Origin: Candidatus Fermentibacterota bacterium
GTDB lineage: Bacteria; JAFGKV01
DNA length: 29,808 nt
Reading direction: 5' to 3'
Assembly (NCBI GenBank): GCA_030620115.1
Contig: JAUXFG010000037.1
Coordinates: 1 to 29,808 of the forward strand
The notes under the pieces are model-generated. The model saw only the letters and a list, made by a program, of their open reading frames with translations. It was not told the DNA's origin and searched no databases. The position numbers were made by a program, and so were the translations under genes. This document shows positions 5,193 to 24,303 of this stretch, in pieces. Positions within the stretch are counted from its first letter, which is position 1; each line of letters begins with the position of its first letter.

Positions 5193-5497
5193 ATGGCTTG
5201 CATGTTCCCGAATGCTGTACGCTTATCGCTAATCGCTCAACGTTTCCCAAATCCCCCGGACGCGATGAAACGCACCCCTCCAGATAGCCGCGCTGAGTGT
5301 ACCCACCTCAAACATCGGTAACACTCATCCCAAAAACATGAGTGCCACTACCCACTTCCCCGACGACAGGGTGATCGGGGGCGAAGACCGCCTCGTTCAA
5401 TTGATCGTTGCGCGTAACTGTTTGAATGTGCATACTCATTGCGTGACTTCCGATGCGCGGGATGTTTCCCGCTGTCCATCACCTGGAGAACGCAATC

Positions 5498-7090
5498 ATG
5501 AACAACAAACGATTCTTCAATACTGCAGGGCCTGTGAACTGCGACAAGCATTACTGTTTGTCGCCGCTGGAGCGAGTCAAACTTGAGGAGATCCTTCCTC
5601 TTATCGAACAGGAGAAGTACTTCGTTCTCCATGCGCCTCGGCAGACAGGGAAGACATCGTGCCTGTTGGCGTTGATGGATTACCTCAACGGGACGAACGA
5701 CTACCGGTGTCTGTACGCAAACGTGGAGATAGCTCAAGCGCCTAGGGAGAACGTCGCAGAGGCGATGCGTGTCATCTTAGGAGAGATGGCTTCATGGGCT
5801 GAGTATAGGCTGAACGACCACTCCTTTGATGGGATCTGGCGTGCGGTGTATGCGGAACGTGGCGGCTATGGGGCTCTAGGAGAAACACTGTCCCGGTGGT
5901 GTGCGGCAGATCCAAGGCCCGTTGTTCTCCTCATTGATGAGATCGATTCATTGGTTGGAGACACGCTGATCTCCATGTTACGACAGATCCGTGCGGGGTA
6001 TGCGAAACGACCGGCTCATTTCCCTCAGAGCATCCTGCTTTGTGGGGTACGAGACGTTCGAGACTATCGGATTCATTCCGATCAGGAGAAGGCGATCATC
6101 ACAGGAGGCAGCGCATTCAATATCAAGGCGGAATCATTACGGCTTGGCGACTTCACCAGGGAGGAGACGAAGGAACTCTACCGGCAACACACCAATGAGA
6201 CGGGCCAGGCTTTTGAGCCTGCTGCACTTGATTTGGCATGGGAGTTGACACGGGGGCAGCCATGGCTGGTCAATGCCTTGGCTCATGAGACCTGTTTCAA
6301 GATGAAGGAAGGCCGAGACCGTTCTTTGGCCATCAGCGCGAAGATGATGGATGAGGCCAAGGAACGGATGATCATGCGGCGTGAAACGCATTTGGACCAA
6401 TTGGTCGACAAGCTCAAGGAAGATCGGGTCAGGAGAGTCATAGAACCGATCCTTGAGGGGCAGGAATTTGAAGAGCAGTTTCATGATCAGGATGTCCAGT
6501 ACGTATTGGACTTGGGATTGATCAGCCAGGAGCGAGCCGGAGCGTTGCACATCGCTAATCCCATCTATCGGGAGATCATCCCCAGGGCGCTGGCATGGAA
6601 TGCGCAGATGGGTATGTCGATTCAGACAACATGGTTTGTTGCCGGCAATGGTCGTCTGCTTATAGACAAGTTGCTTTCCGCGTTTCAGGAGTTCTTCCGT
6701 GAGCATTCAGAGAGCTGGGTGGAACGGTTCGACTACAAAGAAGCTGGTCCCCAGCTCTTGATGCAGGCATTCCTGCAGCGCATTATGAACGCTGGGGGAA
6801 GGATAGAGCGTGAATATGGACTGGGACGGAAACGCACTGATCTTCTGGTGATATGGCCATACCCGGCAGGAGTCCAGAAGGCCGTTATTGAGCTGAAGAT
6901 ACTCCACAGGTCATTGGAAACGACCATAGCAAAGGGCGTGGAGCAGACATGGGAGTACATGGATCGGTCCGGAGCCGAGGAAGGCCATTTGGTGATTTTC
7001 GACCGGGCAGAGGGCAAGCCGTGGGAGGATAAGATCTTTCGACGAGAGGAGGAGTATCGCGGCATCCCCATCATGGTCTGGGGCATGTGA
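5498..7090 (+). CDS. AAA-family ATPase with C-terminal PD-(D/E)XK nuclease-like domain
   Basis: This is 530 residues from the ATG at 5498, chosen because GGAG lies about 10 bases upstream and the sequence MNNKRFFNTAGPV resembles family N-termini; an in-frame ATG at 5453 lacks support. A P-loop (APRQTGKTS, near residue 47) and Walker B (VVLLIDEID, near 140) define an AAA/STAND-like ATPase. A winged-helix-like region follows (about 290-370). The C-terminal 120 residues contain IEREYGLGRKRTDLLV and KAVIELKI, spaced like the D...ExK core of PD-(D/E)XK nucleases. Related orphan ATPases occur in many copies in some environmental genomes; their role, perhaps selfish or defensive, is unknown. It stands alone, with repeat-rich DNA on both sides. 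Confidence 0.8.
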   Translation: MNNKRFFNTAGPVNCDKHYCLSPLERVKLEEILPLIEQEKYFVLHAPRQTGKTSCLLALMDYLNGTNDYRCLYANVEIAQAPRENVAEAMRVILGEMASWAEYRLNDHSFDGIWRAVYAERGGYGALGETLSRWCAADPRPVVLLIDEIDSLVGDTLISMLRQIRAGYAKRPAHFPQSILLCGVRDVRDYRIHSDQEKAIITGGSAFNIKAESLRLGDFTREETKELYRQHTNETGQAFEPAALDLAWELTRGQPWLVNALAHETCFKMKEGRDRSLAISAKMMDEAKERMIMRRETHLDQLVDKLKEDRVRRVIEPILEGQEFEEQFHDQDVQYVLDLGLISQERAGALHIANPIYREIIPRALAWNAQMGMSIQTTWFVAGNGRLLIDKLLSAFQEFFREHSESWVERFDYKEAGPQLLMQAFLQRIMNAGGRIEREYGLGRKRTDLLVIWPYPAGVQKAVIELKILHRSLETTIAKGVEQTWEYMDRSGAEEGHLVIFDRAEGKPWEDKIFRREEEYRGIPIMVWGM

Positions 7091-7298: not shown

Positions 7299-9044
7299 TT
7301 ACGGCAAAACCTCGAGAGCGGCCAGGCGTGCCTCAAAAACAGCGAGGCGTGCTTCCTGTAGCCGAATGCGTTCCGCCATTCGTGCCACGGTAGGATCATG
7401 ATTCAGCAACCCTATTGACGCGCGAACCTTCTTCACACCGGAGTCGGCTGATGATTCCCAGGCTTGCCCTACCACTCGAGTGAACTGGGCGGATGTTATC
7501 TCCTCAGGCGCCACGGCGATGGCTGTACCGTTTTCCAGGCCGGAAGGAATCAACAGATCCCCCGCGTCTACCTCACCACCGACGTTGACAGCCACCTGGC
7601 CGATGAATGCCACTCTTGCATACGCATCGGCATGTTCTTCCCCGGGATCGTTGCCCAGGACTATGGGGCGTGTGCTTATCACCAAATGCTGCGACGCGCC
7701 ATGAGTCCTTCTGGAGACCTGGCCATCGTAGACACCGACGACATCTCCCGGTTCCATGGTTTCACCGGGATTCGATCGGGGAAGAAACTCGGCGAAATCG
7801 GCGCTGCCCGACATGTACGTCACCCCGCCTGCACCGTCACCTTCAATGGCGCCGACGGCGGTACCGTCACCCTTGAAAAACGTTATGAAATTAATGGGGA
7901 CGCCGGGATCGCCCACATAACCGACCTGCAAGGCCAAAACATCGGGACTCGTGCCGGTAGAGGCATTGTAGATCCGTGCCACATGGTAGGCCGGCATCGC
8001 TGATGCATTGATGTCTGCCTCGACGTAGAGCCTTCCGGAAAAGTATCCACCGTATCCGGTGTGGGAATTGCTGCAACCCTTCACGCCGTAGGTGATGCCG
8101 GTGGCGGCGGAGGCGTAACCAGAGATGCCTCTGCCGGAAGTTGATGGACTATGGCCGTAGACACCGGAGGCGCTACCGGAAATGGCGGAGACTTCACCAC
8201 GGACGCCGCCGCCAGATGTGGAGCAGTTCATAAACCTGCCACCGTAGGTGGTGCCGGTGGTGGCGGAGGCGTAGCCGTAAACGCCCTTGCCAGCCGTGGA
8301 GGCAGTCTCGCCGTAGACACCGGAGGTCATGCCCGTGGTAGCGGAGGCCTTGCCGTAGACGCCCCTGCCGGACGTGGAAATACTCCAGCCGTAGACCCCG
8401 TAGGTGGTGCCGGTGGTTTCAGAGGCTACGCCGCAGACGCCTTTGCCGGTCGTGGATCTACTCGAGCCGTAGATCCCGTAGTTGTTGCCCGTAACGGCCG
8501 TGGCCTCGCCGACTACCCCTCTGCCGGACGTGGAATTACTATAGCCGTGGATCCCGGAGGTGGCGCCCGTGAGGGCCGTGTTTGTGCCCTTGATGGCGGC
8601 GCAGGTCCCGGAGGTCACCGACCCGTTAGCTTCGGTCCCGGGCACCAGCCCGCTGGCCATGTAGGCATACCCAGCAGAGGATAGCCGTTGCCGTGGTGTC
8701 TGGTTGAAACCAGCAAATATCACTTGAAGCCAATAGTCCTCGTCAAATCCCAAGCTAATGGAGGGCTGGGGGCTCTCCCCCAGCAAGACATTGAATACGC
8801 CGCCGCTTACGTCTACCATTCGATCGCCGCTGTCCCATTCCATGGTACCGCCGCTGGCGGCATCGTAGATACGGAACCGCATGGTGTAGTCGCCATCAGC
8901 CACGGGCGTACCCCCGCTGTCAGTGACTTTGCCTTGGTAACTGATGACCTGGGGGATATCTGCGAGCGATGGAGGAGCGAGTAGGCCAAGCAGGAAGACT
9001 GTGGAGCAAAACAGCAAGGCGAGCGACGTCTGACGGTGCATCAT
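7299..9044 (-). CDS. Secreted repeat protein with seven 26-residue repeats
   Basis: This is 581 residues from the ATG at 9044, preceded by GGAGG six bases upstream; the open frame extends upstream to 9296 but without a start signal. A signal peptide (1-28, ending LADIP) is followed by a beta-rich domain (30-130: ISYQGKV, MRFRIYD, YWLQVIF, RQRLSSAGYAYMA). Residues 160-341 are seven tandem units with the pattern TxGxxYGVYGxSxSTSGRGVYG. After them come a linker and a domain (about 445-540: SADFAEFLP, PGDVVGV, IGQVAVNV) resembling the Peptidase_G2/intramolecular-chaperone-like domain of phage tail-fibre-type proteins. The C-terminus is a short coiled coil (RIRLQEARLAVFEARLAALE). It is probably a trimeric surface or secreted fibre; the function is unknown. 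Confidence 0.8.
   Translation of the reverse strand: MMHRQTSLALLFCSTVFLLGLLAPPSLADIPQVISYQGKVTDSGGTPVADGDYTMRFRIYDAASGGTMEWDSGDRMVDVSGGVFNVLLGESPQPSISLGFDEDYWLQVIFAGFNQTPRQRLSSAGYAYMASGLVPGTEANGSVTSGTCAAIKGTNTALTGATSGIHGYSNSTSGRGVVGEATAVTGNNYGIYGSSRSTTGKGVCGVASETTGTTYGVYGWSISTSGRGVYGKASATTGMTSGVYGETASTAGKGVYGYASATTGTTYGGRFMNCSTSGGGVRGEVSAISGSASGVYGHSPSTSGRGISGYASAATGITYGVKGCSNSHTGYGGYFSGRLYVEADINASAMPAYHVARIYNASTGTSPDVLALQVGYVGDPGVPINFITFFKGDGTAVGAIEGDGAGGVTYMSGSADFAEFLPRSNPGETMEPGDVVGVYDGQVSRRTHGASQHLVISTRPIVLGNDPGEEHADAYARVAFIGQVAVNVGGEVDAGDLLIPSGLENGTAIAVAPEEITSAQFTRVVGQAWESSADSGVKKVRASIGLLNHDPTVARMAERIRLQEARLAVFEARLAALEVLP
8022..8567 (-). repeat. Seven in-frame 78-bp coding repeats
   Basis: The units encode 26 residues each and vary in the middle (for example YGWSIS, YGETAS, YGHSPS) while keeping STSGRGV. 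The register never shifts the frame. The fifth unit departs most (YGGRFMNC). Such arrays change copy number by recombination. No spacers exist, so this is not a CRISPR. Confidence 0.85.
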
Positions 9045-9403
9045 AGTAAGCCTCCATCGGATTTTGAGTCTGCCGCGGCGTAACACGTCCACTGGCGGGC
9101 AAAGAGCGGGTTCTTGATTCGCAGTCGGAGGAAGAGAGCTGGGCACCTCCCTGGGATGGAGTTTGACAAAATCACGACAATAGCCGAAGCGCCTGGGGAG
9201 AAAACCGAAGACATACCTCCCCAAAGGCACAAGGGACATAAGGGCAAATGATTCATTGTGTTGTCCTGTTTGAGTGAGTTTTTCAGATGATAGCATTGTT
9301 CAGGATATAATGGGAACAGGATTCTGGCATTTCTCCCATAACCGATCAAACCAGAGCCCATCCTGAATGGCTTGTGGAATCTTCAGAACAATACCTCCAC
9401 CGG

Positions 9404-10250: not shown

Positions 10251-10291
10251 TCAAGTGATGATTTTCGCGCCCAGAGGATTCAAGACCTTAG

Positions 10292-10325
10292 CCCGCATTT
10301 CTCACCGGCTATCGTCGCGAAGCGG
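10292..10325 (-). repeat. Dispersed element (GAGAAATGCGGG type), copy B
   Basis: Read on the minus strand, this 34-base stretch matches 13378-13411 at 31 positions. It contains TCGCGAAGCGG and CCCGCATTTCTCACC. It lies in the same noncoding gap as the 38-bp palindrome. Confidence 0.75.
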
Positions 10326-10648: not shown

Positions 10649-12379
10649 TTACTTGGTGATGATCATCGGTATGGCGGAGGTTCCGGAAACAGAAAGGCAA
10701 CGAATGAGGAAGGTGCCGGATGGACTCGGGATTCTGGTTCTCACGAAGTCTCTTCCTCCACATTCCAATAACGAGAAGACTAATCTGCCTGCGAGGTCAT
10801 AGAGCTGCACCTCATGGGACTGGGGAGGCAGCCATAAGCAGACCTCTGTGCCTGCACTTGAGGGGTTCGGCGAAATCCTGAGTGTGCGGTGGTTCGAAAA
10901 AGCTGAAGATGCCTTGAGCGGGGAAAAGCGAAGATCGGCGACGTGGGGAAGATGGTCTGAGGCGATCCTGGTGTCGTCTTGCTGAAGACCGAACAAGTCC
11001 AGCAGTTGCTGATCCAAGAGCGGAGTGTGAAGCACATAGTGGTTTCCTATCTCCATGGTGCTTCCCGTATAGGTGATCCTGTCGATGTGTGTGGGAAGAT
11101 AGGAATTCGCCTCATTGTACCACGTGTACCCGAGTCGCCTATTCGGCTGACGTGAGATAAGCTCCTCCAGAGGAGAATCACCCCAATCAGGCATGAAGTC
11201 GGGACCATACGTCGCGTTGTCACTGATGTCGCCATTGAGCATGGTCTCGATTTGCTGGATATCACCATACATGTTGGTGTCGCCCGTAATGACGATGGGC
11301 GTTCCCTCCGGGAGATCAAGCTGATCTCCAGGGGATTCCGCGTCCCTCACAAACGCCATGATCGCGTCAATGGCTTGCTGTCTTCCGATGTCGTTCCCGC
11401 CCCAGGGGAGGTGGAGGTTGATCACCAGCAGCAGCGAATCAGTACGAAAGGGGATCGCCAAAAGATGGGCGCTGGCATACTCAGTGCCCGGTTGCCAGTT
11501 GCCGATGAATTCGAACCTCGAAACAAGAACAAGGTCAGCGCCCATCCGTTCCGCGTACCATGGCCCGGGCAAGAGTCGGCTCATCCACTGCGCGGTCTGT
11601 TCAGCCGTGTGGCTGAATATCTCCTGGAAAGCTACTATGTCGGGTTCTATAGACCCAAGGATCCTCCGGCAGCGTTCCTCTTCATCCCAGAGGTTATCCC
11701 AGAGCACATTGTAAGTCAGAAGCCGGATATCGGCGGAGCTTTCTTTCTCCAAAAGAATGGGCTCTGGAATCAATGGGTCAGAATCATCAAACGTGTAATG
11801 CATCGAGCGCCCCGAATCAGGAGCCCGATCACCTCCCGGGGCGCCATCCTGAAAGAAGAACGCCACCCTGTTGCCTTGAAACAGGGGCGTCATGCCGTCT
11901 GGCCGGACAAGACGGTCCAGGGCGAGCTCAAACCTCGTTGAGGAGTAGCCCGGTCCCACGACAATGCCGGCGAGATGCCAACCCACGGTATCGTGGCTGG
12001 TTCCATAGTATACGCCGTATCTCCCACCGAAATGCCAGACGAGATCTGCTCCAATTCCACCAATCTCAAGCCCGGTTGCGACATCGTCATCACCGTCGAG
12101 ATAGAGCGCCATGGAGTTGTCCTCCTGATTCAGCATCTCGTCAGCCACCTCGAAACTCATGAAAAGATGGAAGCCGTCGTTTGTCACGAAGAACTCGAGG
12201 AAATCAACACCCCCTGGCACGGCATCACCAGCGGCGTCCTCGTAGAGAGACTCAACCTGGGCCCAATCTTCGAACCGCCCCTCAAGCATGATCGGATGCG
12301 CGGCAGGGAGCCTGCCGGCAGCCAGAGACACGAGGAGGAGTGATGCGAAGCGGATATACACTCTTGTCGCAAATCTCAT
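10649..12379 (-). CDS. Secreted endonuclease/exonuclease/phosphatase-fold enzyme with C-terminal sorting-like domain
   Basis: This is 576 residues; the ATG at 12379 has AAAGG eight bases upstream. Residues 1-27 are a signal peptide (LLLVSLAAGRLPAA). About 30-200 is a beta-sandwich resembling CBM9/DOMON-like domains (FEDWAQVE, ALYLDGDDDVATG). The EEP domain (216-485) keeps its motif residues: N224 in LTYNVLWDN, E253 in FQEIF, H323 in INLHLPWGG, D367 and N369 in GDTNMY, D433 in HIDRI, D475-H476 in ASDHLPH. It should be a metal-dependent phosphodiesterase acting on DNA, RNA, phospholipid or a sugar phosphate. The last 80 residues (ISPNPSSAGTEV, VQLYDLAGRLV, ending MIITK) look like a FlgD-like or type IX secretion sorting domain. 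It stands alone between repeat-rich gaps. Confidence 0.88.
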   Translation of the reverse strand: MRFATRVYIRFASLLLVSLAAGRLPAAHPIMLEGRFEDWAQVESLYEDAAGDAVPGGVDFLEFFVTNDGFHLFMSFEVADEMLNQEDNSMALYLDGDDDVATGLEIGGIGADLVWHFGGRYGVYYGTSHDTVGWHLAGIVVGPGYSSTRFELALDRLVRPDGMTPLFQGNRVAFFFQDGAPGGDRAPDSGRSMHYTFDDSDPLIPEPILLEKESSADIRLLTYNVLWDNLWDEEERCRRILGSIEPDIVAFQEIFSHTAEQTAQWMSRLLPGPWYAERMGADLVLVSRFEFIGNWQPGTEYASAHLLAIPFRTDSLLLVINLHLPWGGNDIGRQQAIDAIMAFVRDAESPGDQLDLPEGTPIVITGDTNMYGDIQQIETMLNGDISDNATYGPDFMPDWGDSPLEELISRQPNRRLGYTWYNEANSYLPTHIDRITYTGSTMEIGNHYVLHTPLLDQQLLDLFGLQQDDTRIASDHLPHVADLRFSPLKASSAFSNHRTLRISPNPSSAGTEVCLWLPPQSHEVQLYDLAGRLVFSLLECGGRDFVRTRIPSPSGTFLIRCLSVSGTSAIPMIITK

Positions 12380-12850: not shown

Positions 12851-13336
12851 ATGGAACGCTCGCATCGTCACCAACACTTGGTCTTTGACCTTGATGAACA
12901 GCGTTATGCGATAAAGCTCTCCGCGGTGGAAAAGGTAATACGGGCTGTTCAAATAACCAACCTGGCAGAGGCGCCGGAGTTCTTACTGGGCCTCATCAAT
13001 CTGCAAGGAAACATAATCCCCGTCATCGATATCCGCAGAGCGCTCCATTTGCCAGATCGGGAGCTGGAGCTAAGCGATCGAATCATCATTGCCAAGATAT
13101 CGGGAAGAGTGATTGCTTTCGCAGTGGACAATGTCGATGATATCGTCGAGCCCACTTCGGACGAGATACATAATGCTCGAAGCATCTACCCCGGCATGGA
13201 GGACTATATCGAGGGAGTAGGCAAGCTCCGAGACAATACAGTCCTTCTCTATGACATCAACAAACTCCTTTCGATGAGCGACATAGAAGAGTTGAACATT
13301 CTACCGGGAGAGCTCGACAAAGGAACCGGCAGATGA
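12851..13336 (+). CDS. CheW-like coupling protein 1 (WspB position)
   Basis: This 161-residue protein is a single CheW domain (HLVFDLDEQRYAIKLSAVEKVIRA at the start; GLINLQGNIIPVIDIRRAL at 47-65). CheW links chemoreceptor tips to CheA in the sensory array. The NLRG motif conserved in E. coli CheW (Arg62) is NLQG here (Q52), while the following DIRR arginine is kept. It is the first gene of a tight plus-strand operon; GGAAGG lies 12 bases before the ATG at 12851, somewhat far. Gene order (CheW, CheR-TPR, CheW) matches wspB-wspC-wspD. Confidence 0.93.
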   Translation: MERSHRHQHLVFDLDEQRYAIKLSAVEKVIRAVQITNLAEAPEFLLGLINLQGNIIPVIDIRRALHLPDRELELSDRIIIAKISGRVIAFAVDNVDDIVEPTSDEIHNARSIYPGMEDYIEGVGKLRDNTVLLYDINKLLSMSDIEELNILPGELDKGTGR

Positions 13337-13353
13337 CGGTGAACCCACATTTA

Positions 13354-13411
13354 TTACCAATCCCGTGCGGCGCGGGACCGCTTCGCGACAAAAGCTGGTG
13401 AGAAATGCGGG
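13354..13411 (+). repeat. Dispersed element filling the cheW-cheR gap, copy C; includes the cheR start codon
   Basis: The 68-bp spacer after cheW starts with TTACCAATCCCG (shared with 4833-4844), a CCCG...CGGG hairpin, and then a 34-base stretch (13378-13411) that matches the reverse complement of 10292-10325 at 31 positions. The shared GGTGAGAAATGCGGG contains the ATG at 13405 used by cheR and the only Shine-Dalgarno-like bases in front of it. Confidence 0.75.
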
Positions 13412-14817
13412 ATAGAGTCTCTGACGCGCTCGTGGAAAAGCTGAGCGAATTCGTTTCCTCTGAAATCGGTCTCTTTTTCCCAAGAGAGCGCTGGGGAGAC
13501 CTCGAACGAGGCATAGGGCATGCGGCTCAAGATTGGGGGTTCGAGGACAAGACCTCATGTATCCAATGGCTCCTTTCGACCCCCCTCTCCGAGGATCACC
13601 TTGAGACATTGATAGGCCGCCTGACCATTGGTGAGACCTATTTCTTCAGAGATAAGAAGACACTTCAGGCCCTCGAGGATTTAATCCTTCCTGGTCTGAT
13701 TCGCCTGCGTCGCGGCAAGGAAGCAATGCTGAGAATCTGGAGTGCGGGATGTTGCACTGGTGAGGAGCCCTATTCCATAGCGATGATTGTCGACAGAATG
13801 ATTCCATGCCTGAGGGACTGGAACATCAGAATCCTGGGGAGCGACATCAATGGCGGGTTCCTCGAAAAAGCCAAGCGCGGCGTCTATACCAAATGGTCTT
13901 TTCGTCATGCCCCGCCCTGGGTCATGGGAGAGTACTTCACCACGGTCGGCAAAGACCGCTTCGAGATCTCCCAAAGCATCAAGAGCATGGTCGAGTTTCG
14001 TCAGCTCAACCTCATGAAGGACAGCTATCCTTCCCCGGATTCAGGCATACTGGAGATGGACGTGATTTTCTGCCGGAATGTGCTGATGTATTTTTCCACC
14101 GATTCCGGGAGCTTGGTTGTCAGCCATCTTTTTGAGTCTCTTGCGGAAGAGGGTTGGTTAATCGTGAGCCCCAGCGAGGTCGCGTATGTTGCGCATCCGG
14201 ACCTGAGATCTGTGCGATTCCCCGGCGCCTTCCTTTTCAGAAAGAAGCGGGCTGACGACGATATCGAGGAGGATGCAGGAGAGAACCATGCGGCGCCGAA
14301 AGAAGATCCTTGCATGGATGTTCTGGCGCTCTACAATGAAGGACGCTATGAAGCGGTTGTGGAAAGAATCACCGAGGTACTATCCCAGGCATCAGGCAGC
14401 AATTCCACTTCCAATCCCGGATTCCTCGCACTTCTGGCAAAGGCGTATGCCAACCAAGGAAAGCTGGACGAGGCACGGAAGTGGTGCGAAAGAGCGATCG
14501 AAGAGGACAGATCCTATCCCGGGCACTACTACCTGACCGCGACTGTTTGCCAGGAACAAGGCCGCTTCGATGAGTCGAGGAAATTCCTTAACCAAGCGCT
14601 CTATCTCGACCAAGGATTCGTGCTGGCCCATTTTCTCCTGGGTCATCTCGCCAGAATCCAGGGCAAGTCCAAGCAATCGAGGAAGCACCTCAAGAACGCT
14701 CTTGATCTGCTGGTTTGCATGGGTCCGGGAGAGATCCTTCCCTACTCTGACGGGATGATCGCGGCGAAGATGGCTGAAATGATCCAGACCATGATCAGAG
14801 AGGAGCACCACGCATGA
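13405..14817 (+). CDS. CheR-type chemoreceptor methyltransferase with C-terminal TPR domain (WspC-like)
   Basis: This is 470 residues. The N-terminal helical CheR domain (1-75: EIGLFFPRERWGDLE) precedes the SAM-dependent methyltransferase domain (80-280) with IWSAGCCTGEEPYSIAM (glycine-poor motif I typical of CheR), SDIN for the acidic ribose contact, and FCRNVLMYF. Residues 310-450 hold TPR units (ALYNEGRYEAVVERI, AKAYANQGKLDEARKWCERAI, ATVCQEQGRFDESRKFLNQAL, GHLARIQGKSKQSRKHLKNAL). CheR-TPR proteins are typical of Wsp and Frz-like pathways. It methylates glutamates on the receptor encoded two genes downstream. The start lies in a dispersed repeat; the next gene overlaps by ATGA. Confidence 0.94.
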   Translation: MRDRVSDALVEKLSEFVSSEIGLFFPRERWGDLERGIGHAAQDWGFEDKTSCIQWLLSTPLSEDHLETLIGRLTIGETYFFRDKKTLQALEDLILPGLIRLRRGKEAMLRIWSAGCCTGEEPYSIAMIVDRMIPCLRDWNIRILGSDINGGFLEKAKRGVYTKWSFRHAPPWVMGEYFTTVGKDRFEISQSIKSMVEFRQLNLMKDSYPSPDSGILEMDVIFCRNVLMYFSTDSGSLVVSHLFESLAEEGWLIVSPSEVAYVAHPDLRSVRFPGAFLFRKKRADDDIEEDAGENHAAPKEDPCMDVLALYNEGRYEAVVERITEVLSQASGSNSTSNPGFLALLAKAYANQGKLDEARKWCERAIEEDRSYPGHYYLTATVCQEQGRFDESRKFLNQALYLDQGFVLAHFLLGHLARIQGKSKQSRKHLKNALDLLVCMGPGEILPYSDGMIAAKMAEMIQTMIREEHHA

Positions 14818-15509
14818 CTGATGGCAAGGATCCTCGCTCCTCTGATAATCCTCAACCACCACAGAGCGGTTCTCTGCCGGGTGGTTCCACTGCGGACCGT
14901 TGGGAGGTCATTCGACGTCATCTGGAGGCGGGAAAAGCAGCACTCGAGAGAGAGTTCAAACCGACTCCGGAAGAAAGACTCAAGATACTCAAGGCCCGAG
15001 CCCAAACCCTGGCCCAAGAGGCAGAGCATGATAAGGGTGATGATTTTTACCTTGAGGTTGTTGAGTTTCTTCTTGCCAATGAGAAGTATGCTCTTGAACT
15101 CACGCATATCCGCGAGGTGTATCCCCTGAAGGACCTGACACTTCTTCCATGTACGCCATCTTTTGTCCGTGGGATCATCAACTTGCGCGGTCGGATTCTT
15201 TCCATCATTGACCTCAAACAGTTCTTCGAGCTCCCTGACACGGGGCTGACTGATTCTAATTGTGTAATCGTTCTCCATTCAGACGAACTGGAGTTCGGCA
15301 TCCTTGCAGACGTCATCCTTGGGCTCAGGTCGATCCCCAAAGATGCCATTCAGCGCTCACTTCCTACGTTGACAGGTATTCGAACCGATTATCTTAGGGG
15401 GGTTACCGGTGACCGCGTTGCAATTCTGGACGGTAGTAAGATCCTTTCTGACTCGAGGATCACAGTGCACGAAGAAATGGATTCATCACTCACGCAGTTT
15501 CGATCATAG
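14814..15509 (+). CDS. CheW-like coupling protein 2 with N-terminal extension (WspD position)
   Basis: This is 231 residues, overlapping cheR by 4 bases. The first 75 residues are a disordered proline/serine stretch followed by a charged helix with [18 protein letters not shown], a segment also typical of WspD-like proteins. The CheW domain (78-220) has [20 protein letters not shown]125 is the E. coli Arg62 equivalent and is present, whereas the downstream DLR arginine is lysine. The two CheWs thus each keep only one of two conserved arginines. It probably joins the same CheA-receptor array. Confidence 0.92.
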
Positions 15510-15519
15510 GGAGGTCAGG

Positions 15520-17571
15520 ATGATTGATTTCTTCAGGAGATTTTTCACTGGAAGCTTGATGAGGCGATTGGTTATCACTTTCCTCTTGGTCGCTTTCGTG
15601 CCCATAGTGATCGTCGCATCACTCGCCTTTCGCTTCTTCGGAGAAGCCCTGCAAGAGGATGCGTTCAACCAGCTTTCCGCCGTACGGGAAATCAAGAGAA
15701 GTGAGATCTTGAATGACCTGAAGCGGAGGCTGGATGATGCGGAGGTTCTTTCGGAATCCGAGGATGTCAGAAGGGCCTTCTCGCTGTTGGTGCCCTATGG
15801 CAGTACAGGACAAGCAGATCCACAAGGATTCTACGATGTGGCTTCCAAGGAATACGAAGCGATCTATGAGTGGATTGATCCCTTTTTCGCGAAGTATGCA
15901 AAGCTTCGCGAGTATCATGACATTTTCCTTATCAGCAGGGATCATGGCCACATAATGTATTCAGTGGCGTACAAGCAAGATCTCGGGACCAACTTGAGGA
16001 TGGGACCCTACAGGGATTCCAGCCTGGCGAAGCTTTGGGCCAAGGTTCTGAGAGGCAAAAAAACAAGCCTCGTGGATTTTACCTACTATGCGCCAAAGAA
16101 TGAGCCTGCCGCCTTCGTCGCGACGCCCATAACTGATGAAAACGGAAAGCTCCTTGGCGTGTTGGCCCTGCAGATCAGCACAGATCAGATCAATAGCATC
16201 ATGCAGGAAAGAACAGGAATGGGTGAGACTGGAGAAACCTATCTTGTGGGAGAGGACCTCTTGATGCGTTCAGATTCGAGGTTCGACAGCACGTCCACCA
16301 TTCTAAAAATCACTGTCAATACGGGTCCTGTGCGGAAAGCGCTCAAGGGCCTGACGGGAACCGAGATTGCTGAGAATTACAGAAACGTGAAGACCCTGAG
16401 TTCCTTTTCCGGGTTGGGATTGAAGAAGACATTCGGAACTGATTTCGAGTGGATTATCGTCTCGACAATCGATGAGGCTGAGGCGCTTGCCCCAATCAAG
16501 GCTCTTCGATCCAGGATCTTGCTGATCGGGTTTGCCATGATGATGTTGGCCTGTGCGGTGGGATACTTCTCTGCGAGGCTCATCTCCAAGCCCCTCGAGA
16601 TCTTGTCCGAAAGGGTCGCGCGAATGGCTGCTGGGGACTTGACGGTTGCGGTGAATCCCGAGACACGGCTCGACGAGGTAGGAGTATTGATGCGAGCCTT
16701 CCACACCATGCTGCAAACCCTTCGCAATCAGACCCAACAGATGATGGATGGCGCGCGCACCTTGGCTGCCTCCATGAGTGATATGTCGGCGACATCCGCT
16801 CAACTTGCCGCAAGCTCGGCAGAGACGTCGACCTCCATTGGAGAGATCACTACGACTGTTGAAGAAGTGAGGCATACTGCCCACGTTTCAAATGACAAGG
16901 CCGAGCAACTTGCTGCGACGGCAGAGAAAGCGGCCCAAGCCTCCGAGGTGGGCAAGGAAGCCACGGAGCAGGCTATCGAAGGGATGAATCGAATCAAGGA
17001 AGAGATGGAGTATGTCGCGGATAGCATCATGAAGCTCGGTGAACAGAGCCAGAGTATCGGTGAAATCATCGGTGCGGTGAACGATCTGGCTGACCAATCC
17101 AATCTTCTTTCGGTCAATGCATCCATCGAGGCGGCAAAGGCAGGCGAGTATGGCAAGGGTTTTGCCGTCGTGGCGCAGGAGATGAAAGCACTTGCCGAAC
17201 AATCAAAAGAGGCGACTCGCCAGGTCAGAACCATCTTGAACGACATCCAAAAGGCTACCAGCGCAGCTGTTTTGGCCACTGAGCGGGGAAGCAACGCGGT
17301 GGAAGCGGGAGCAGAGATGTCGACACAATCGAGTGCGGCCATCACGACTCTGTCCTCGGGCATCTCCGCGGCGGCAGATGCATCCGTTCAGATCGCTGCC
17401 TCGAGCCAACAGCAGTTGGTCGGAATGGACCAGCTTGCCACAGGCATGGAGAGCATCAAAGAAGCTACAGTCCAGAATCTGGATGGCGCGCAACAATTGG
17501 AGCGTGCCATGAAGGATTTGGACGAACTCGCCCAGAAGCTGAAACAACTTTCCGAAAGGTTCAAGGCATGA
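15520..17571 (+). CDS. Methyl-accepting chemotaxis protein with Cache sensor domain (WspA-like)
   Basis: This is 683 residues from the ATG at 15520, which has GGGAGG four bases upstream; the frame opens earlier inside cheW2 without support. TM1 spans 17-38 and TM2 333-352. The 294-residue periplasmic region between them fits a dCache domain ([51 protein letters not shown]). HAMP (354-405: [20 protein letters not shown]) leads to a long cytoplasmic coiled coil with the tip at 520-558 ([20 protein letters not shown]...[16 protein letters not shown]). AASSQQQ near 626 is a likely methylation region. No C-terminal CheR-tethering pentapeptide is present. The ligand is unknown. The cheA start overlaps its stop. 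Confidence 0.95.
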
Positions 17572-19934
17572 AGGAAGAGGCGTTACTCAAGAAGCTCCGA
17601 GCGGCCTTTCGTGTGGAAGCTGAGGAACGCCTTACTTCTATCTCTTCAAAGCTTATCGAGCTCGAGAACACATCAGATGAGGGCGAGCAGGGCTCCATCA
17701 TCGAGGTAGTCTACAGAGAGGCCCACAGTCTGAAAGGCGCTGCCCGAGCCGTGGAATTGGCGGATATCGAAGTCTTGTGTCAGTCCATTGAGGATATCTT
17801 TGCCGATATGAAACGCAAAAGGATCGTGGTTTCTCCGGAGCTCTTCGATGCGCTTCTTGATTCAGTCCGATTCCTTGAGAACAGGGCGAACATTCTTGAA
17901 TGGGATCAACCGACTTCATGTCAGGACGAGTTGGCAACGCTTGTTCGCCGACTCACATCTCAAGCAGCTGCGGGAGAAGACAGCGAGACAAGAACCAAGG
18001 ATCCAGAAGCCGATACTGGAGCTATCGGTCTGATGAGAGATAAGAAGACCGACGCCAAGGGAACGGAACGCTCCTTGCCGACCCCTCTCACCAAACCGGC
18101 GCGCGGGGATAAGCCATCTCCGGAAGCTCAGCCCGTTGTTCGTACAACCACGGAGACTGTCAGAATGTCCACCGAGAAACTGAGCTCCCTTCTATGCAAG
18201 GCGGAGGAGCTGGTGTCTCTCAAATTGGTGGCAGGTCAACATCTGAGCGACCTGAGGGATATTCTGCGGTCATTTCGGGAGTGGCAGAAGAGACAGGCCG
18301 GAATCAACGCGGATATTCGGTTGCTCCGCAACATGGTTCAACGGGGGAAGCCAGCCAACGGAACATGTTTTAACCTTGCGCCATTAGCCAACGTGCTGGA
18401 ATTCCTTGATTGGAATCAGGACAACATGCAAGCTCTCAGACGAGAGCTAAGAATCCTCACAAATGCGGCTGCTCAGAACGGATACTTGCTTGGCAGAATG
18501 GTGGATGACCTTCTGGATAGCGCCAAAGAAACTACCATGCTTCCCTTTTCGACCCTTCTTGAGCTCCTGCCAAGGATGGTCCGGGATCTCGCGCGTGATC
18601 TTGGCAAAGAGGTAGATCTAAAGATCCAGGGAAGTGAGATCCAAATAGACAGACGCATCCTAGAGGAGATGAAAGACCCCTTCATTCACCTTTTGAGAAA
18701 CGCGGTGGATCATGGTCTGGAGAAGCCCGAGAAACGTGAAAAACAAGGTAAACCGCGCCGGGGAATCGTAAGATTCATCGTTTCCCAGACCGAAGGAGAT
18801 AGAGTTGAGGTTCTGGTTTCCGATGACGGAAGGGGAATCGATCCGGATCAAATAAAGGATATAGCGATTGGGAATGAGCTCTTGACCAAAGGAGAAGCAG
18901 AACGCCTTGATGAACAAGAGGTCTTGTCTCTCATCTTCCGTTCAGGTGTATCCACGAGTCCAATAGTCACACAACTCTCCGGCAGAGGGCTTGGGCTTGC
19001 CATCGTACAGGAGAGAATCGAGAAGCTCAACGGCCTCATGGCGGTGGAGACAAGAATCGGCATGGGCTCATCCTTCAGGATCCAGTTGCCGGTGACTCTG
19101 GCCACCTACAGAGGCATCCTCGTGAGAGTGGGAGACGATCTCTTCATTCTCCCGAGTTCTCATGTTGAACGTGTCGCGAGTATCCCAAGAGAAGATGTGC
19201 AAACGATCGAGAACCGTGCAACGATTCCTCTCGACGGGCGGGCGGTTTCTTTGGTTCATCTTGCTGATTCGCTCGAGCTTCCAAGGGCAAGGAACGTAGA
19301 GGAAGGGAACGGAAACATCACCGTCGCAGTCCTGGGCTCAGGTGAGAGACGGATTGCCTTCCAGATCAGCGAGGTTCTCAGTGAGCAGGAGGTCTTGGCA
19401 AAGGACCTGGGGAGACAACTCAGGCGGGTGCGCAACATCGCGGGCGCAACGATCTTGGGCTCAGGCAGGGTGGCGCCGATTCTTAATGTTCGTGATCTGC
19501 TGGAGTCAGCGGCGAAAGCTTCGGCCCAAGGTTCTATGGCTGCTGTTCCGGAAGACGAAACAGCATCGAGAAGCAAGTCTATCCTTGTGGTCGAAGATTC
19601 TATCACCTCCAGGATGCTGCTCAAGAACATCCTCGAGACAGCCGGATATGTCGTCAAGACGGCTTTTGATGGGATGGACGCGTATGCGACATTGAGGATC
19701 CAGGACTTCGATATGATTGTCACTGACATACAGATGCCGAGAATGGACGGTTTTGAGTTGACGGCGAAGATTCGTGGTGACGAGAGGCTGCGCGAAAAAC
19801 CTGTCGTGTTGGTTACCGGGCTGGAATCGCGGGAGGACCGCGAACGTGGTATTGATGTAGGGGCCAACGCCTATATCGTGAAAAGCAGCTTTGACCAGGC
19901 CAATCTTCTTGAGGTTGTCATGAGGCTCATCTAA
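17568..19934 (+). CDS. CheA histidine kinase with C-terminal receiver domain (WspE-like hybrid)
   Basis: This is 788 residues. The HPt domain (1-115) carries the phosphorylated His53 in [10 protein letters not shown] disordered linker (130-195) replaces a recognisable P2 domain. The dimerisation region (200-330) is longer than in E. coli. The ATPase domain has N378 in [12 protein letters not shown], the G1 box DDGRGID (419-425) and the G2 box [10 protein letters not shown] CheW-like domain (510-650) follows. The receiver domain (670-788) has the acidic pair in VVEDS, phosphoacceptor D720 in [11 protein letters not shown] and K772. The built-in REC may act as phosphate sink or regulator, as in WspE and FrzE. 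It overlaps the MCP stop (ATGA) and the cheB start (TAATG). Confidence 0.95.
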
Positions 19935-20980
19935 TGGCTCGCGTTCTCATCGTCGATGATTCTCCAACGGCTCGTCAATACCTGGAACACCTGATCAACA
20001 CGGATGGTGATCTAGAGGTCATGGGGCTGGCAAGGGACGGTGTAGAAGCCATTGAACTGGTGCGGCGAGAGCGCCCTGACGTGGTAGTGATGGACACCCA
20101 TATGCCGAGGATGGATGGGTATCATGCGACCAAGGAGATCATGGAAACCTACCCTGTCCCCATTGTGATATGCGCGACAGGCTTGGAGCCTGGAGGCGTC
20201 GGGAAGGCCTTTCGAGCCATGGAGGCGGGAGCTGTTGCCACGGTAAGGAAACCTGCAGGACCCGGGGATCATGGAACCGATGATTCGGCGGGCAAATTCA
20301 TTCAGACCGTGAAGCTGATGTCAGAAGTCAAGGTGGTACGCCGTCGACCAAGAGTGAGACGCCCTGAACCCGAACGCACAACTCAAGCTCATCCAAAAAC
20401 CAAGCTACCTCGGTCCCAGATAGAGGTGATAGCCATGGGGGCCTCCGCTGGTGGGCCCCCTGTCATTCGAACTATCCTTTCCAGGCTAGGTGGGGAGTTC
20501 CCCATTCCCATACTTGTTGTGCAGCATATTGCCACAGGATTCCTTGGCGGGCTTGTCGATTGGCTGAAGAAGAGCACCGTCCTTCCGATCCATATCCCCA
20601 TTGACAGGGAGCGCATCGCGGCGGGACATATCTATTTCGCCCCGGAAGGCTGTCACATGGGGGTAACAATGAGTGGGAAGATTGTCTTGAGCACTAGCCC
20701 GCCGGATCGAGGGCTGCGGCCGTCCATCTCCCATCTTTTCAGTTCTGCGGCAGATGCTTTTGGGAAGAAGGCTGTAGGGGTGTTACTTACCGGGATGGGT
20801 GTCGATGGAGCCCATGAGCTCAAGAAGATGAAAGCTATGGGAGCAGTGACCATCGCCCAGGACAAAGCCAGCTCGGTCATTCACAGCATGCCGGAAAAGG
20901 CTATCGAGATTGGTGGGACAGATTATATTCTCCCTCCTGAGGGGATTGCCGATGTTCTGAGTTCTCTCGCCAGGAAATGA
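19934..20980 (+). CDS. cheB: CheB receptor methylesterase/deamidase (WspF-like)
   Basis: This is 348 residues. The receiver domain (1-125) has D8-D9, phosphoacceptor D54 in VVMDTHMPRMDG and K106 in RKPAG. After a basic linker (133-160), the methylesterase domain keeps its catalytic triad: S171 in MGASAGGPP, H198 in VVQHIATGF and D291 in TGMGVDGA. It removes methyl groups from receptor glutamates when phosphorylated by CheA, opposing the CheR two positions before the receptor. In Wsp systems loss of this protein locks signalling on. It is complete, with no motif loss, and overlaps genes on both sides. Confidence 0.95.
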   Translation: MARVLIVDDSPTARQYLEHLINTDGDLEVMGLARDGVEAIELVRRERPDVVVMDTHMPRMDGYHATKEIMETYPVPIVICATGLEPGGVGKAFRAMEAGAVATVRKPAGPGDHGTDDSAGKFIQTVKLMSEVKVVRRRPRVRRPEPERTTQAHPKTKLPRSQIEVIAMGASAGGPPVIRTILSRLGGEFPIPILVVQHIATGFLGGLVDWLKKSTVLPIHIPIDRERIAAGHIYFAPEGCHMGVTMSGKIVLSTSPPDRGLRPSISHLFSSAADAFGKKAVGVLLTGMGVDGAHELKKMKAMGAVTIAQDKASSVIHSMPEKAIEIGGTDYILPPEGIADVLSSLARK

Positions 20981-21762
20981 ACACGGCAAGAAAGAATGAG
21001 GACATGACGGATGAGCACGACGCAGTGATTCTCGTGGTTGAAGACAGCCCTACGCAGGCCCTTCAGTTGGAGTTGCTTCTGGGGGGGAAGGGCTACGACG
21101 TCGCCATAAGCCGCAACGGTCGGGAAGCACTGGCCTTCCTCAAGAAAAGCGGCGCATCGATAGTGATCAGCGATGTCGTTATGCCCGAGATGGATGGTTA
21201 CGAACTCTCACAGCAGATCAAGGCGGATGAGCATTTAAGGCACATCCCTATCCTTCTCCTTACCACGCTTTCTGATCCAGAAGATATGCTCAAGGCACTG
21301 GAAAGCGGAGCTGATAACTTCGTCATAAAGCCGTACGAGGATAAGAGCTTGCTGTCACGCATAAAGCATATTCTCGATAACAAAAGAAATATTGGCAATG
21401 TAGAATCCCAGATAGGCATAAAGGTATCTTTTGCGGGAAAGGAGTTATTCATCAATTCCGACAAAATTCAGATACTTGACCTCATGTTTTCTATGTATGA
21501 CAGAATCATCAACCAATATCGTGAACTTGAACGTGTAAGCAAAGATCTGAATGACGCCAAGGAGGCGATCAAAAATCTTCATGGAATACTTCCGATCTGT
21601 GCCAATTGCAAGAGAATAAGAGACGATAACGATCAATGGCAGAATCTCGAAAAGTACATCGAGGCGCATTCCAGAGCCGCGTTCAGTCATGGCCTATGCG
21701 ATAAGTGCTGCAGAGAACTATATCCTGATAGGTATGAGGAGATCTATGCTGGGGAAGAGTAG
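20977..21762 (+). CDS. Response regulator with conserved linker and four-cysteine C-terminal domain
   Basis: This is 261 residues from the ATG at 20977 (ATGA overlap with cheB); an ATG at 21004 with GAGG upstream is equally likely. The receiver domain (15-135) has E22-D23, phosphoacceptor D66 in VISDVVMPEMDGYEL and K118 in VIKPY. Residues 145-195 (IGIKVSFAGKELFINSDKIQ, a helix, YRELERVSKDL) are a linker shared with the next gene. The C-terminus (200-252) has LPICANCKRIRDD, FSHGLC and CDKCC: C208, C211, C241 and C244 are set like zinc ligands. This tail is known at the ends of sensor kinases and regulators, chiefly of deltaproteobacteria, but has no defined role. It occupies the position where wspR would be. 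Confidence 0.88.
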   Translation: MNTARKNEDMTDEHDAVILVVEDSPTQALQLELLLGGKGYDVAISRNGREALAFLKKSGASIVISDVVMPEMDGYELSQQIKADEHLRHIPILLLTTLSDPEDMLKALESGADNFVIKPYEDKSLLSRIKHILDNKRNIGNVESQIGIKVSFAGKELFINSDKIQILDLMFSMYDRIINQYRELERVSKDLNDAKEAIKNLHGILPICANCKRIRDDNDQWQNLEKYIEAHSRAAFSHGLCDKCCRELYPDRYEEIYAGEE

Positions 21763-21802
21763 ATCGCTTTCATGAATAGTATGATTGCATTAGGAGATCG
21801 CT

Positions 21803-23092
21803 ATGTCACAAGGTGTTGATATATTGATTGTTGAAGACAGCCTGACCCAGGCTGTGCAACTGCAGCATATGCTTGAACGACATCGTCACCGCGTCACGGT
21901 GGCACGCGACGGCTTCGACGCTCTCGAGCGGCTCAGAGAACACAGACCGGCGCTGGTGGTCAGTGACATCATTATGCCTGAGATGGATGGCTACGAACTA
22001 TGCCGCCGGATAAAGACGCAGGAGGGCTTCAAGGATATCCCTGTGATTCTTCTGACCGCCCTTTCCAACCCTGAGGACGTGATCAAGGCACTCGAAAGTG
22101 GTGCGGACAACTTTGTTACCAAACCCTACGATGAGAGTTTCCTCATGGCTCGGGTTGGGACTGTGCTGCACAATCAGGAACTACGCAAACGAGGTACGCC
22201 GGAACTTGGGATTGAAGTAGTTGTCGCTGGAAAAAAGTACTCTATTACCTCGGATCGCATGCAAGTCATCGACTTCCTGTTCTCCACATATGATAATGCC
22301 CTTCAGAAGAACCAAGAGCTCGAACGGGCCAACAACAAGCTGATCATGATGCAGGAAGAGCTTGAAAAGCGAAATATGGATCTTGAGGAACTGAATGAGG
22401 AGAAGAACAGATTCCTCAGTATGGCCGCGCACGACTTGCGCAATCCCTTGGCCGTAATATTCGGATACAGTGACATCCTGCTCTACGATGCTTCCGAAGA
22501 AGCTGCCCAGGAGGAGCTCGAGATGATCTCTGTGATGAAGTCATCGAGCGAATTCATGTTACAGATCGTGAATGAATTCCTGGACATCGCCAAAATTGAA
22601 GCGGGAAAACTCGAACTAGATCTGAAGATCACGGATGTCGTGGCTTTGATGAAGGAGTGTATCTCACTCAACCGGGTTTTTGCAGTAAGGAAGCAGATGA
22701 AGCTTCTCTTCCGCCACGATGATGAAGTTCCTGCGGTGATGATGGATTCCTGCAAGATTGAGCAGGTCATGAATAATCTTATCAGCAATGCCATCAAATA
22801 CTCCTATCCACAAAGCTCGGTAGAAATCCGCATTGAAAGGAGCGGCCATTGCTTAGTGATTTCGGTGAGGGATGAAGGGCAAGGTATCCCTGAGAAGGAA
22901 CTTGACAAGCTCTTCAAGCCATTCGAAAAAACCAGCGTGAGAACCACCGCAGGTGAGACGAGCACAGGTCTCGGCCTGGCAATAGCAAAGAAGATCGTGG
23001 AGTCCCACGAAGGACATATCTGGGTCGAGAGTGAAGTGGGCAGAGGCTCAGTATTCTACTTTGATCTGCCAATCCCGGAATCCCCAAGTTGA
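21803..23092 (+). CDS. Receiver-histidine kinase hybrid (REC-linker-HisKA-HATPase)
   Basis: This is 429 residues; the ATG at 21803 has GGAG seven bases upstream. The N-terminal receiver (5-120) has E11-D12, D55 in VVSDIIMPEMDGYEL and K107. The linker (135-190: LGIEVVVAGKKYSITSDRMQ, FLFSTYDNALQKNQELE) is paralogous to that of the preceding gene. A coiled coil runs into a HisKA domain with H210 in SMAAHDLRNPLAVIFGYS. The HATPase domain has N325/N329 (QVMNNLISNAIKY), the G1 box DEGQGIP and the G2 box TGLGLAIAKKIVESH. With no membrane segment, it is a soluble kinase whose activity is probably set by phosphorylation of its own receiver, so it could take phosphate from CheA and pass the signal to an unseen regulator. 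Confidence 0.93.
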   Translation: MSQGVDILIVEDSLTQAVQLQHMLERHRHRVTVARDGFDALERLREHRPALVVSDIIMPEMDGYELCRRIKTQEGFKDIPVILLTALSNPEDVIKALESGADNFVTKPYDESFLMARVGTVLHNQELRKRGTPELGIEVVVAGKKYSITSDRMQVIDFLFSTYDNALQKNQELERANNKLIMMQEELEKRNMDLEELNEEKNRFLSMAAHDLRNPLAVIFGYSDILLYDASEEAAQEELEMISVMKSSSEFMLQIVNEFLDIAKIEAGKLELDLKITDVVALMKECISLNRVFAVRKQMKLLFRHDDEVPAVMMDSCKIEQVMNNLISNAIKYSYPQSSVEIRIERSGHCLVISVRDEGQGIPEKELDKLFKPFEKTSVRTTAGETSTGLGLAIAKKIVESHEGHIWVESEVGRGSVFYFDLPIPESPS

Positions 23093-23103: not shown

Positions 23104-24303
23104 ATGCAAGGAAGCATTGCTGCGAAGATAGAGACATTCATGGAAGCGGGATCCTGGATCCGCAAAATGTTTGAGGAAGGCGCGGCGCTCAAGAAAGAGT
23201 TTGGGGCTGACAATGTCTTCGATTTCTCACTCGGCAACCCCATGGGCGATCCTCCGCAACGTTTCCTTCAGGCTATCCGCGAAGCACTGGATGACCCGGC
23301 TCCGGGAAAACACGGCTATATGCCGAATGCGGGATACCCTGACGTGCGCGCCAAGCTGGCGGAATACCTCGCCAAGGATCATGGCGTCCCTCTGGAGGCG
23401 AAGCATCTCGTGCTCACCGTGGGGGCAGCAGGCGGGCTCAATGTGGCACTCAAATCCCTGGTGAATCCCGGTGAAACGATACTGATATTCGCGCCGTTCT
23501 TTGTTGAGTATCGTTTCTACATCGACACCGTGGGATGTACGTGCCGAATCGTTGAGACTGATGAGGATTTCAATCTCGACTTGGACGCCATCGAACAGGC
23601 ATTGGATCCATCGGTCAAGGCGATCATCATCAACACGCCCAATAATCCCACCGGCCGCGCCTATTCGGAGCAGGCGCTCGCCGAGCTGGCACGCCTCGTT
23701 GAGGCAAAATCAGAGGAATATGGGCATCCTATCTACATACTTTCTGATGAACCATACAAGCGGATCGTCTACGATGGATTCCGCACACCGAGCCTATTGA
23801 AGATCACGAAGAATGCCATCATCTGTACGTCATATTCAAAGGAACTCTCCATTCCAGGCGAGCGCCTTGGCTATATTGCTGTCCATCCCGATTGTTTCGG
23901 CGTCGACAAGATCGTTGCCGCCTTGACGTTCTGTAACCGCATCTTGGGGTTTGTCAACGCCCCGGCTTTGATGCAGCGAGCATTGGGCCGCTCCATTGGC
24001 GTGGCGGTGGATATCAGTCAGTACGCGGAGAACCGGGCGCTGCTCCTGCCGGCTTTGCGCGATATGGGATACGAGCTAATCCCGACAGAAGGTACATTCT
24101 ACCTGTTCCCCAAAAGTCCCATCCCTGATGAAGTCGCCTTCGTTGCCGAGCTGAAAAAGGAACGAATCCTGGTAGTTCCGGGCAGGGGTTTTGGGCGCAG
24201 TGGTTACTTCAGGATATCGTACTGTGTGACACGAGAGATCATCGAAAAGGCACTGCCTGGGTTCGAGCGCGCCATCAAGCGAGTCCGGACTCGGAATCTA
24301 TAA
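23104..24303 (+). CDS. Class I/II pyridoxal-phosphate aminotransferase
   Basis: This is 399 residues. The ATG at 23104 is chosen over an in-frame TTG at 23089 because AAAGGAA lies five bases upstream. Fold-type I landmarks are present: NNPTG (180-184), D215 in LSDEPYKR, the Schiff-base lysine K246 in TSYSKELSIPGERLGY, and the substrate-carboxylate arginine R370 in GYFRISYC. The reaction is amino-group transfer between an amino acid and a 2-oxoacid, most like aspartate/aromatic-type aminotransferases; substrate specificity cannot be read. It starts 11 bp after the kinase and is probably the last gene of the che operon, an unusual member. Confidence 0.93.
   Translation: MQGSIAAKIETFMEAGSWIRKMFEEGAALKKEFGADNVFDFSLGNPMGDPPQRFLQAIREALDDPAPGKHGYMPNAGYPDVRAKLAEYLAKDHGVPLEAKHLVLTVGAAGGLNVALKSLVNPGETILIFAPFFVEYRFYIDTVGCTCRIVETDEDFNLDLDAIEQALDPSVKAIIINTPNNPTGRAYSEQALAELARLVEAKSEEYGHPIYILSDEPYKRIVYDGFRTPSLLKITKNAIICTSYSKELSIPGERLGYIAVHPDCFGVDKIVAALTFCNRILGFVNAPALMQRALGRSIGVAVDISQYAENRALLLPALRDMGYELIPTEGTFYLFPKSPIPDEVAFVAELKKERILVVPGRGFGRSGYFRISYCVTREIIEKALPGFERAIKRVRTRNL

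Follow-up and report, generated by a model that had tools for sequence, protein, structure and literature searches.

The Che3 system of Rhodospirillum centenum provides a described case of a chemosensory array that acts on a second histidine kinase. In this system, the hybrid kinase CheA3 (CheA-REC) phosphorylates the first receiver (REC1) of CheS3, and CheS3 phosphorylates CheY3, as established by biochemical evidence (PMC3868531). The action of CheA3 turns the CheS3 kinase down, i.e. phosphate is not handed along (PMC3868531). Gene clusters containing cheR-TPR have been tied to the ACF (alternative cellular functions) class of chemosensory systems, and approximately 40% of the response regulators in such clusters carry a kinase module (PMC3447774). 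The Wsp system of Pseudomonas, which has WspR (REC-GGDEF) as its output, offers a further point of comparison.

The window analysed here, meaning the whole stretch of DNA of 29,808 nucleotides, is an entire contig of a 4.1-Mb, 98% complete genome from Candidatus Fermentibacterota, a sparsely sampled phylum with three genomes in the compared genome set. Eight neighbouring genes on the + strand encode CheW, CheR-TPR, CheW, a Cache receptor, CheA-REC, CheB, a REC protein and a REC-kinase; this order had been read from the sequence in an earlier note and is confirmed by Pfam (domain E-values 3e-11 to 2e-54). The junctions between these genes either overlap by 1-4 bases or leave gaps of 10-68 bases, and the eight genes are therefore likely transcribed as one operon. 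The receptor reading frame opens at 15409 within the second cheW, and inspection points to the ATG at 15520 as its likely start. The features are as follows.

12851 to 13336, + strand: CheW, in the WspB position (Pfam CheW 1.7e-32)
13405 to 14817, + strand: CheR methyltransferase with TPR repeats, in the WspC position (Pfam CheR 7.6e-47, TPR_2 3.3e-13)
14814 to 15509, + strand: CheW with an N-terminal extension of about 75 residues, in the WspD position (Pfam CheW 7.6e-28)
15520 to 17571, + strand: membrane receptor, dCache_1-HAMP-MCPsignal (Pfam MCPsignal 1.7e-32, dCache_1 1.9e-17, HAMP 2.7e-11)
17568 to 19934, + strand: hybrid CheA, Hpt-HATPase-CheW-REC, in the WspE / CheA3 position (Pfam)
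19934 to 20980, + strand: CheB, REC-methylesterase (Pfam)
20977 to 21762, + strand: output regulator 1, REC-linker-CysTail (Pfam REC 3.5e-25, the rest without a Pfam match)
21577 to 21735, + strand: Cys-tail module of regulator 1, C208-x2-C211...W221...E225...H238-x2-C241-x2-C244 (matches within the genome and across genomes)
21803 to 23092, + strand: output regulator 2, REC, linker and HisKA-HATPase kinase with phospho-acceptor His210 (Pfam and residue check)
23104 to 24303, + strand: PLP aminotransferase of the PRK06836 type, likely ATG at 23104 (NCBIfam NF005305 4e-165, above cut-off)

The aminotransferase gene begins 11 bases 3' of the kinase gene and is probably co-transcribed with it; no aminotransferase match was found near the related operons, and the gene is considered to lie outside the conserved set. 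Promoter and terminator scans returned no more matches than shuffled sequences. A dispersed repeat with the core GGTGAGAANTGCGGG occurs at 13378-13420 and 10283-10325, with copies also on other contigs of the genome; the copy at 13378-13420 lies between cheW and cheR and includes GGTGAG and the ATG that is the predicted cheR start. Several other genes of the window are of separate interest. On the - strand, 3011-4015 encodes a cyclic-nucleotide-binding domain fused to GGDEF (Pfam), a fusion that gives a diguanylate cyclase an unusual input, and the gene at 7299-9296 encodes a large, secreted-looking protein without a Pfam match, in which 78-base tandem repeats (8086-8631) code for a 26-residue repeat. 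The - strand gene at 10649-12379 encodes an Exo/endonuclease/phosphatase-family protein whose C-terminus, by eye, resembles type IX secretion sorting tails, which would suggest a relative of the FCB group. On the + strand, 5453-7090 encodes an AAA ATPase with only weak AAA Pfam matches, and its C-terminal region may, by eye, be nuclease-like.

The core of the operon is that of Pseudomonas Wsp (CheW, CheR-TPR, CheW, receptor, CheA-REC, CheB), and the Wsp components CheA-REC, CheR-TPR, two CheW proteins and CheB are all found. Unlike in Wsp, the receptor gene is fourth rather than first and its product has a dCache domain, and the REC-GGDEF output (WspR) is missing from the operon, which contains no GGDEF gene. 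The catalytic residues of the set are intact. CheA retains the Hpt motif HSLKG and receiver Asp720, and CheB retains GASAGG, QH and TGMGVDG together with receiver Asp54. Regulators 1 and 2 keep the receiver residues Asp66 and Asp55, respectively, and the kinase histidine of regulator 2 (His210) is intact within AAHDLRNPL, with ATP-binding motifs present. Regulator 1 is a 261-residue protein comprising a receiver (residues 18-130), a linker (approximately 139-190; a strand pair and a long helix in the predicted model) and the Cys tail; the four-cysteine tail described in the earlier note is indeed present, with its coordinates now refined to residues 201-252 or thereabouts. Both the tail and the linker are kept in four orthologues. 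Regulator 2 has its receiver at residues 7-118, followed by the same linker module at approximately 129-178, and Pfam finds one REC and HisKA in this protein but no PAS match. The two regulators are 45% identical over the 183 residues of receiver and linker.

In gene content and logic, the operon is similar to R. centenum Che3, which likewise comprises two CheWs, CheR, one MCP, CheB and a hybrid CheA-REC, together with one further REC protein and a second histidine kinase whose phosphorylatable REC is N-terminal (Asp55 and His210 here). The outputs differ in architecture. CheS3 is a REC-REC-PAS-HWE kinase whereas the window kinase is REC-linker-HisKA, without a second REC or PAS, and CheY3 is a bare receiver whereas the small regulator of the window adds a linker and the Cys tail. 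The locus also resembles the cheR-TPR clusters of the ACF class in combining CheR-TPR with multidomain response regulators; it has the MCP, CheW and CheA core as well as REC-HisKA-HATPase and CheR-TPR in the cluster, the features by which the class is recognised (PMC3447774). The markers of flagellar chemotaxis (Fla), a flagellum and a single-domain CheY in the cluster, were not found. Flagellar FlhA was not detected in the 98%-complete genome, which fits the non-motility output of ACF systems, but type IV pilus ATPases are present. The genome's three detected CheW domains all lie within this operon, which is therefore taken as its only chemosensory system. In the family's other two genomes, no match was obtained to CheA at 1e-60 or to the REC-CysTail regulator at 1e-35. 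The operon is best placed in the ACF class, with an output resembling CheS3 and an additional regulator for whose type no description was found.

The earlier note had presented the locus as a Wsp-like set with a replaced output and as an arrangement that it did not recognise as described. The Wsp-like core stands, as does the missing REC-GGDEF, but the locus is one branch of the known ACF class, because the slot after cheB is variable in related operons. The arrangement cannot be upheld as new, since a REC-kinase is already the target of a CheA-REC protein in R. centenum (PMC3868531) and regulators that combine REC with a kinase are frequent in cheR-TPR clusters (PMC3447774). The unusual part is the Cys-tail regulator, which is missing from the output-domain list quoted in PMC3447774.

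Related operons were compared in two ways. In a set of 20 operons picked by CheA similarity alone, the outputs after or beside cheB were REC-GGDEF (8), a kinase (5, one of them without a detected REC), other REC-linker proteins (2, of PAS and HD types) or none assigned (5); a Cys-tail regulator was found in 0 of the 20. The best CheA match (G267, 49% identity) lies in an operon of Wsp order whose only output regulator is REC-GGDEF, and the next (G121, 46%) has the window's order followed by a single REC-linker-kinase. A second scan covered named genomes by similarity to regulator 1. Among the matches listed, which are a sample, the slot holds REC-linker-kinase or REC-linker-GGDEF in Desulfomonile, Ignavibacteria, Methyloversatilis, Pseudomonas and others, as well as in Syntrophales, Nitrospirae and Gemmatimonadetes. 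The operons of Desulfomonile (L072), Ignavibacteria (L073), G121 and G446 follow the window's order through cheB wherever the locus is complete and continue with REC-linker-kinase, and differ from the window in that none has a Cys-tail regulator. Tandem linker-type outputs, i.e. two REC-linker-kinase genes after cheB, occur in the Ignavibacteria locus, which is cut at the contig start, and in G446 (L183). The slot after cheB is therefore variable and can hold REC-GGDEF, a REC-histidine kinase, REC-HD or others.

The exact pair of the window, REC-linker-CysTail followed by a REC-kinase-like protein, was found after cheB in all four species of one genus from another phylum (G346; L067, L173, L174 and L175). 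Conservation of the pair, which the earlier note had proposed as a check, is hence partial: the pair recurs in this one other genus, but neither of the two best CheA matches has it. The kinase-like proteins of the genus have N, E, E and S at the position of the phospho-acceptor histidine, and their ATP-binding motifs have decayed to varying extents, whereas the REC-CysTail regulator keeps its phospho-Asp and tail. A kinase output is therefore not a conserved part of the pair, and given the decayed kinase, these sequences suggest that in this genus the pair can act mainly through the Cys-tail regulator. The chemosensory operon of the genus thus has a pseudokinase as an output, and no REC match was found in the CheB proteins of its four species.

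Receiver phylogeny was examined in a tree of 108 receivers, part of which were chosen by similarity to the output regulators. In this poorly resolved tree, CheA, CheB and output receivers separate with few exceptions (3 changes versus a shuffled mean of 49.2). Both output receivers of the window cluster with output receivers from related che operons and apart from those of CheA and CheB, in agreement with the view that two RECs occupy the output slot. A second tree of 29 rows was built from receiver and linker. In both trees each window regulator is nearer to receivers of other organisms than to its neighbour; in the 29-row tree, a recent duplication, i.e. sisterhood of the window regulators (p-AU 0.316), and descent of all REC-CysTail proteins from one ancestor (p-AU 0.284) are neither favoured nor excluded.

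The Cys-tail module comprises approximately 50 residues, of which seven (C, C, W, E, H, C and C) do not vary among 32 aligned proteins. It was matched 142 times in 78 of 386 sampled genomes (about a fifth). In all 30 reading frames inspected, the module is C-terminal and ends 1-18 residues before the C-terminus. The module-bearing proteins carry PAS (about half), REC, GAF, CHASE, MASE3, 7TM, solute-binding or propeller domains, and no HisKA, HATPase, GGDEF or EAL appears among the 25 families listed for them. A second copy in the same genome is also on a receiver protein (contig C70; L010 1501-1653), and others occur in L186-L215. The Cys tail thus behaves like an output domain, and its Cys/His pattern suggests that it is probably metal-binding. 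A known zinc domain was considered and rejected, with no Pfam or NCBIfam match near threshold and no PDB sequence match. Foldseek gave no significant match with a weak model of the tail (pLDDT 79 for the best of five models and below 59 for the other four), and the sequence motifs of the tail were not found in a literature search. In regulator 1, the receiver and linker that are usual for outputs of this operon are joined to the Cys tail, a combination for which no published description was found. It is tentatively suggested, at somewhat less than even confidence, that the Cys tail represents an undescribed class of output domain that, in many bacteria, replaces the kinase or GGDEF at the C-terminal end of REC and PAS proteins, and that it is under CheA control both here and in a distant genus.

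The preferred reading, which is considered probable, is that of an ACF-class array in which phospho-CheA would act on both outputs, through CheS3-like control of the kinase and through exposure or dimerisation of the Cys4/His module. The dCache receptor would read a periplasmic signal, and its array with two CheW proteins would control autokinase CheA, with CheR-TPR and CheB setting the adaptation level. Phospho-CheA would have four candidate receivers, namely its own REC, which is probably a phosphate sink, CheB and the two output regulators. Once its receiver is phosphorylated, regulator 2 may change in kinase activity, as CheS3 does under the action of CheA3, and its histidine kinase would then act on some response regulator. 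The earlier proposal that phosphate passes to the second kinase went too far, as CheA3 phosphorylation of the CheS3 receiver turns that kinase down; CheA lowers CheS3 activity in R. centenum, and the connection is therefore read as control, not relay. We infer that phosphorylation of regulator 1 would expose or dimerise its C-terminal Cys4/His module, which would contact a partner. The cellular output may be gene expression or surface behaviour, possibly through type IV pili.

A linear cascade of the R. centenum type, in which CheA phosphorylates only the receiver of the REC-kinase, and this kinase in turn phosphorylates the four-Cys regulator as the counterpart of CheY3, is less likely but is the most serious competitor. 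It draws on the finding that CheS3, not CheA3, phosphorylates CheY3 (PMC3868531), on the adjoining genes of the two regulators and on the histidine and ATP-binding motifs of the window kinase. However, the two regulators have receivers and linkers of one type (45% identical), which suggests a common phosphodonor, and the G346 genus has a four-Cys regulator with phospho-Asp and tail next to a kinase without the histidine. Motility chemotaxis steering type IV pili is improbable: PilB/PilT-type ATPases are present in the genome, with three clustered on contig C14, and the genome has no other chemosensory system, but CheR-TPR with multidomain response regulators marks the ACF class (PMC3447774), Pfam finds no single-domain CheY in the operon, and the window holds no pilus genes. 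Least probable by a little is a system that functions as Wsp, with CheA driving c-di-GMP synthesis through a diguanylate cyclase from another locus and with an accessory role for the two regulators. In its favour are the core gene set, the Wsp-order operon with REC-GGDEF that holds the closest CheA, and the genome's one REC-GGDEF (contig C219) and further GGDEF proteins. A REC-GGDEF gene outside the operon, which the earlier note had considered as a possible preferred CheA target, does exist on C219. In the 108-receiver tree, however, the C219 receiver forms a long, isolated branch and is not of the operon-output type, and most related operons with REC-kinase outputs have no REC-GGDEF in the operon.

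Under the preferred reading of CheA control over both regulators, the operon is another case of a chemosensory array apparently controlling a second kinase. Outputs in this operon family are built in a modular way, with receiver and linker retained and the end piece being GGDEF, kinase, HD-type or Cys tail. The Cys tail is apparently common, yet no function, structure or family model was found for it; its connection to a chemosensory array provides a defined input, through which its function would become testable.
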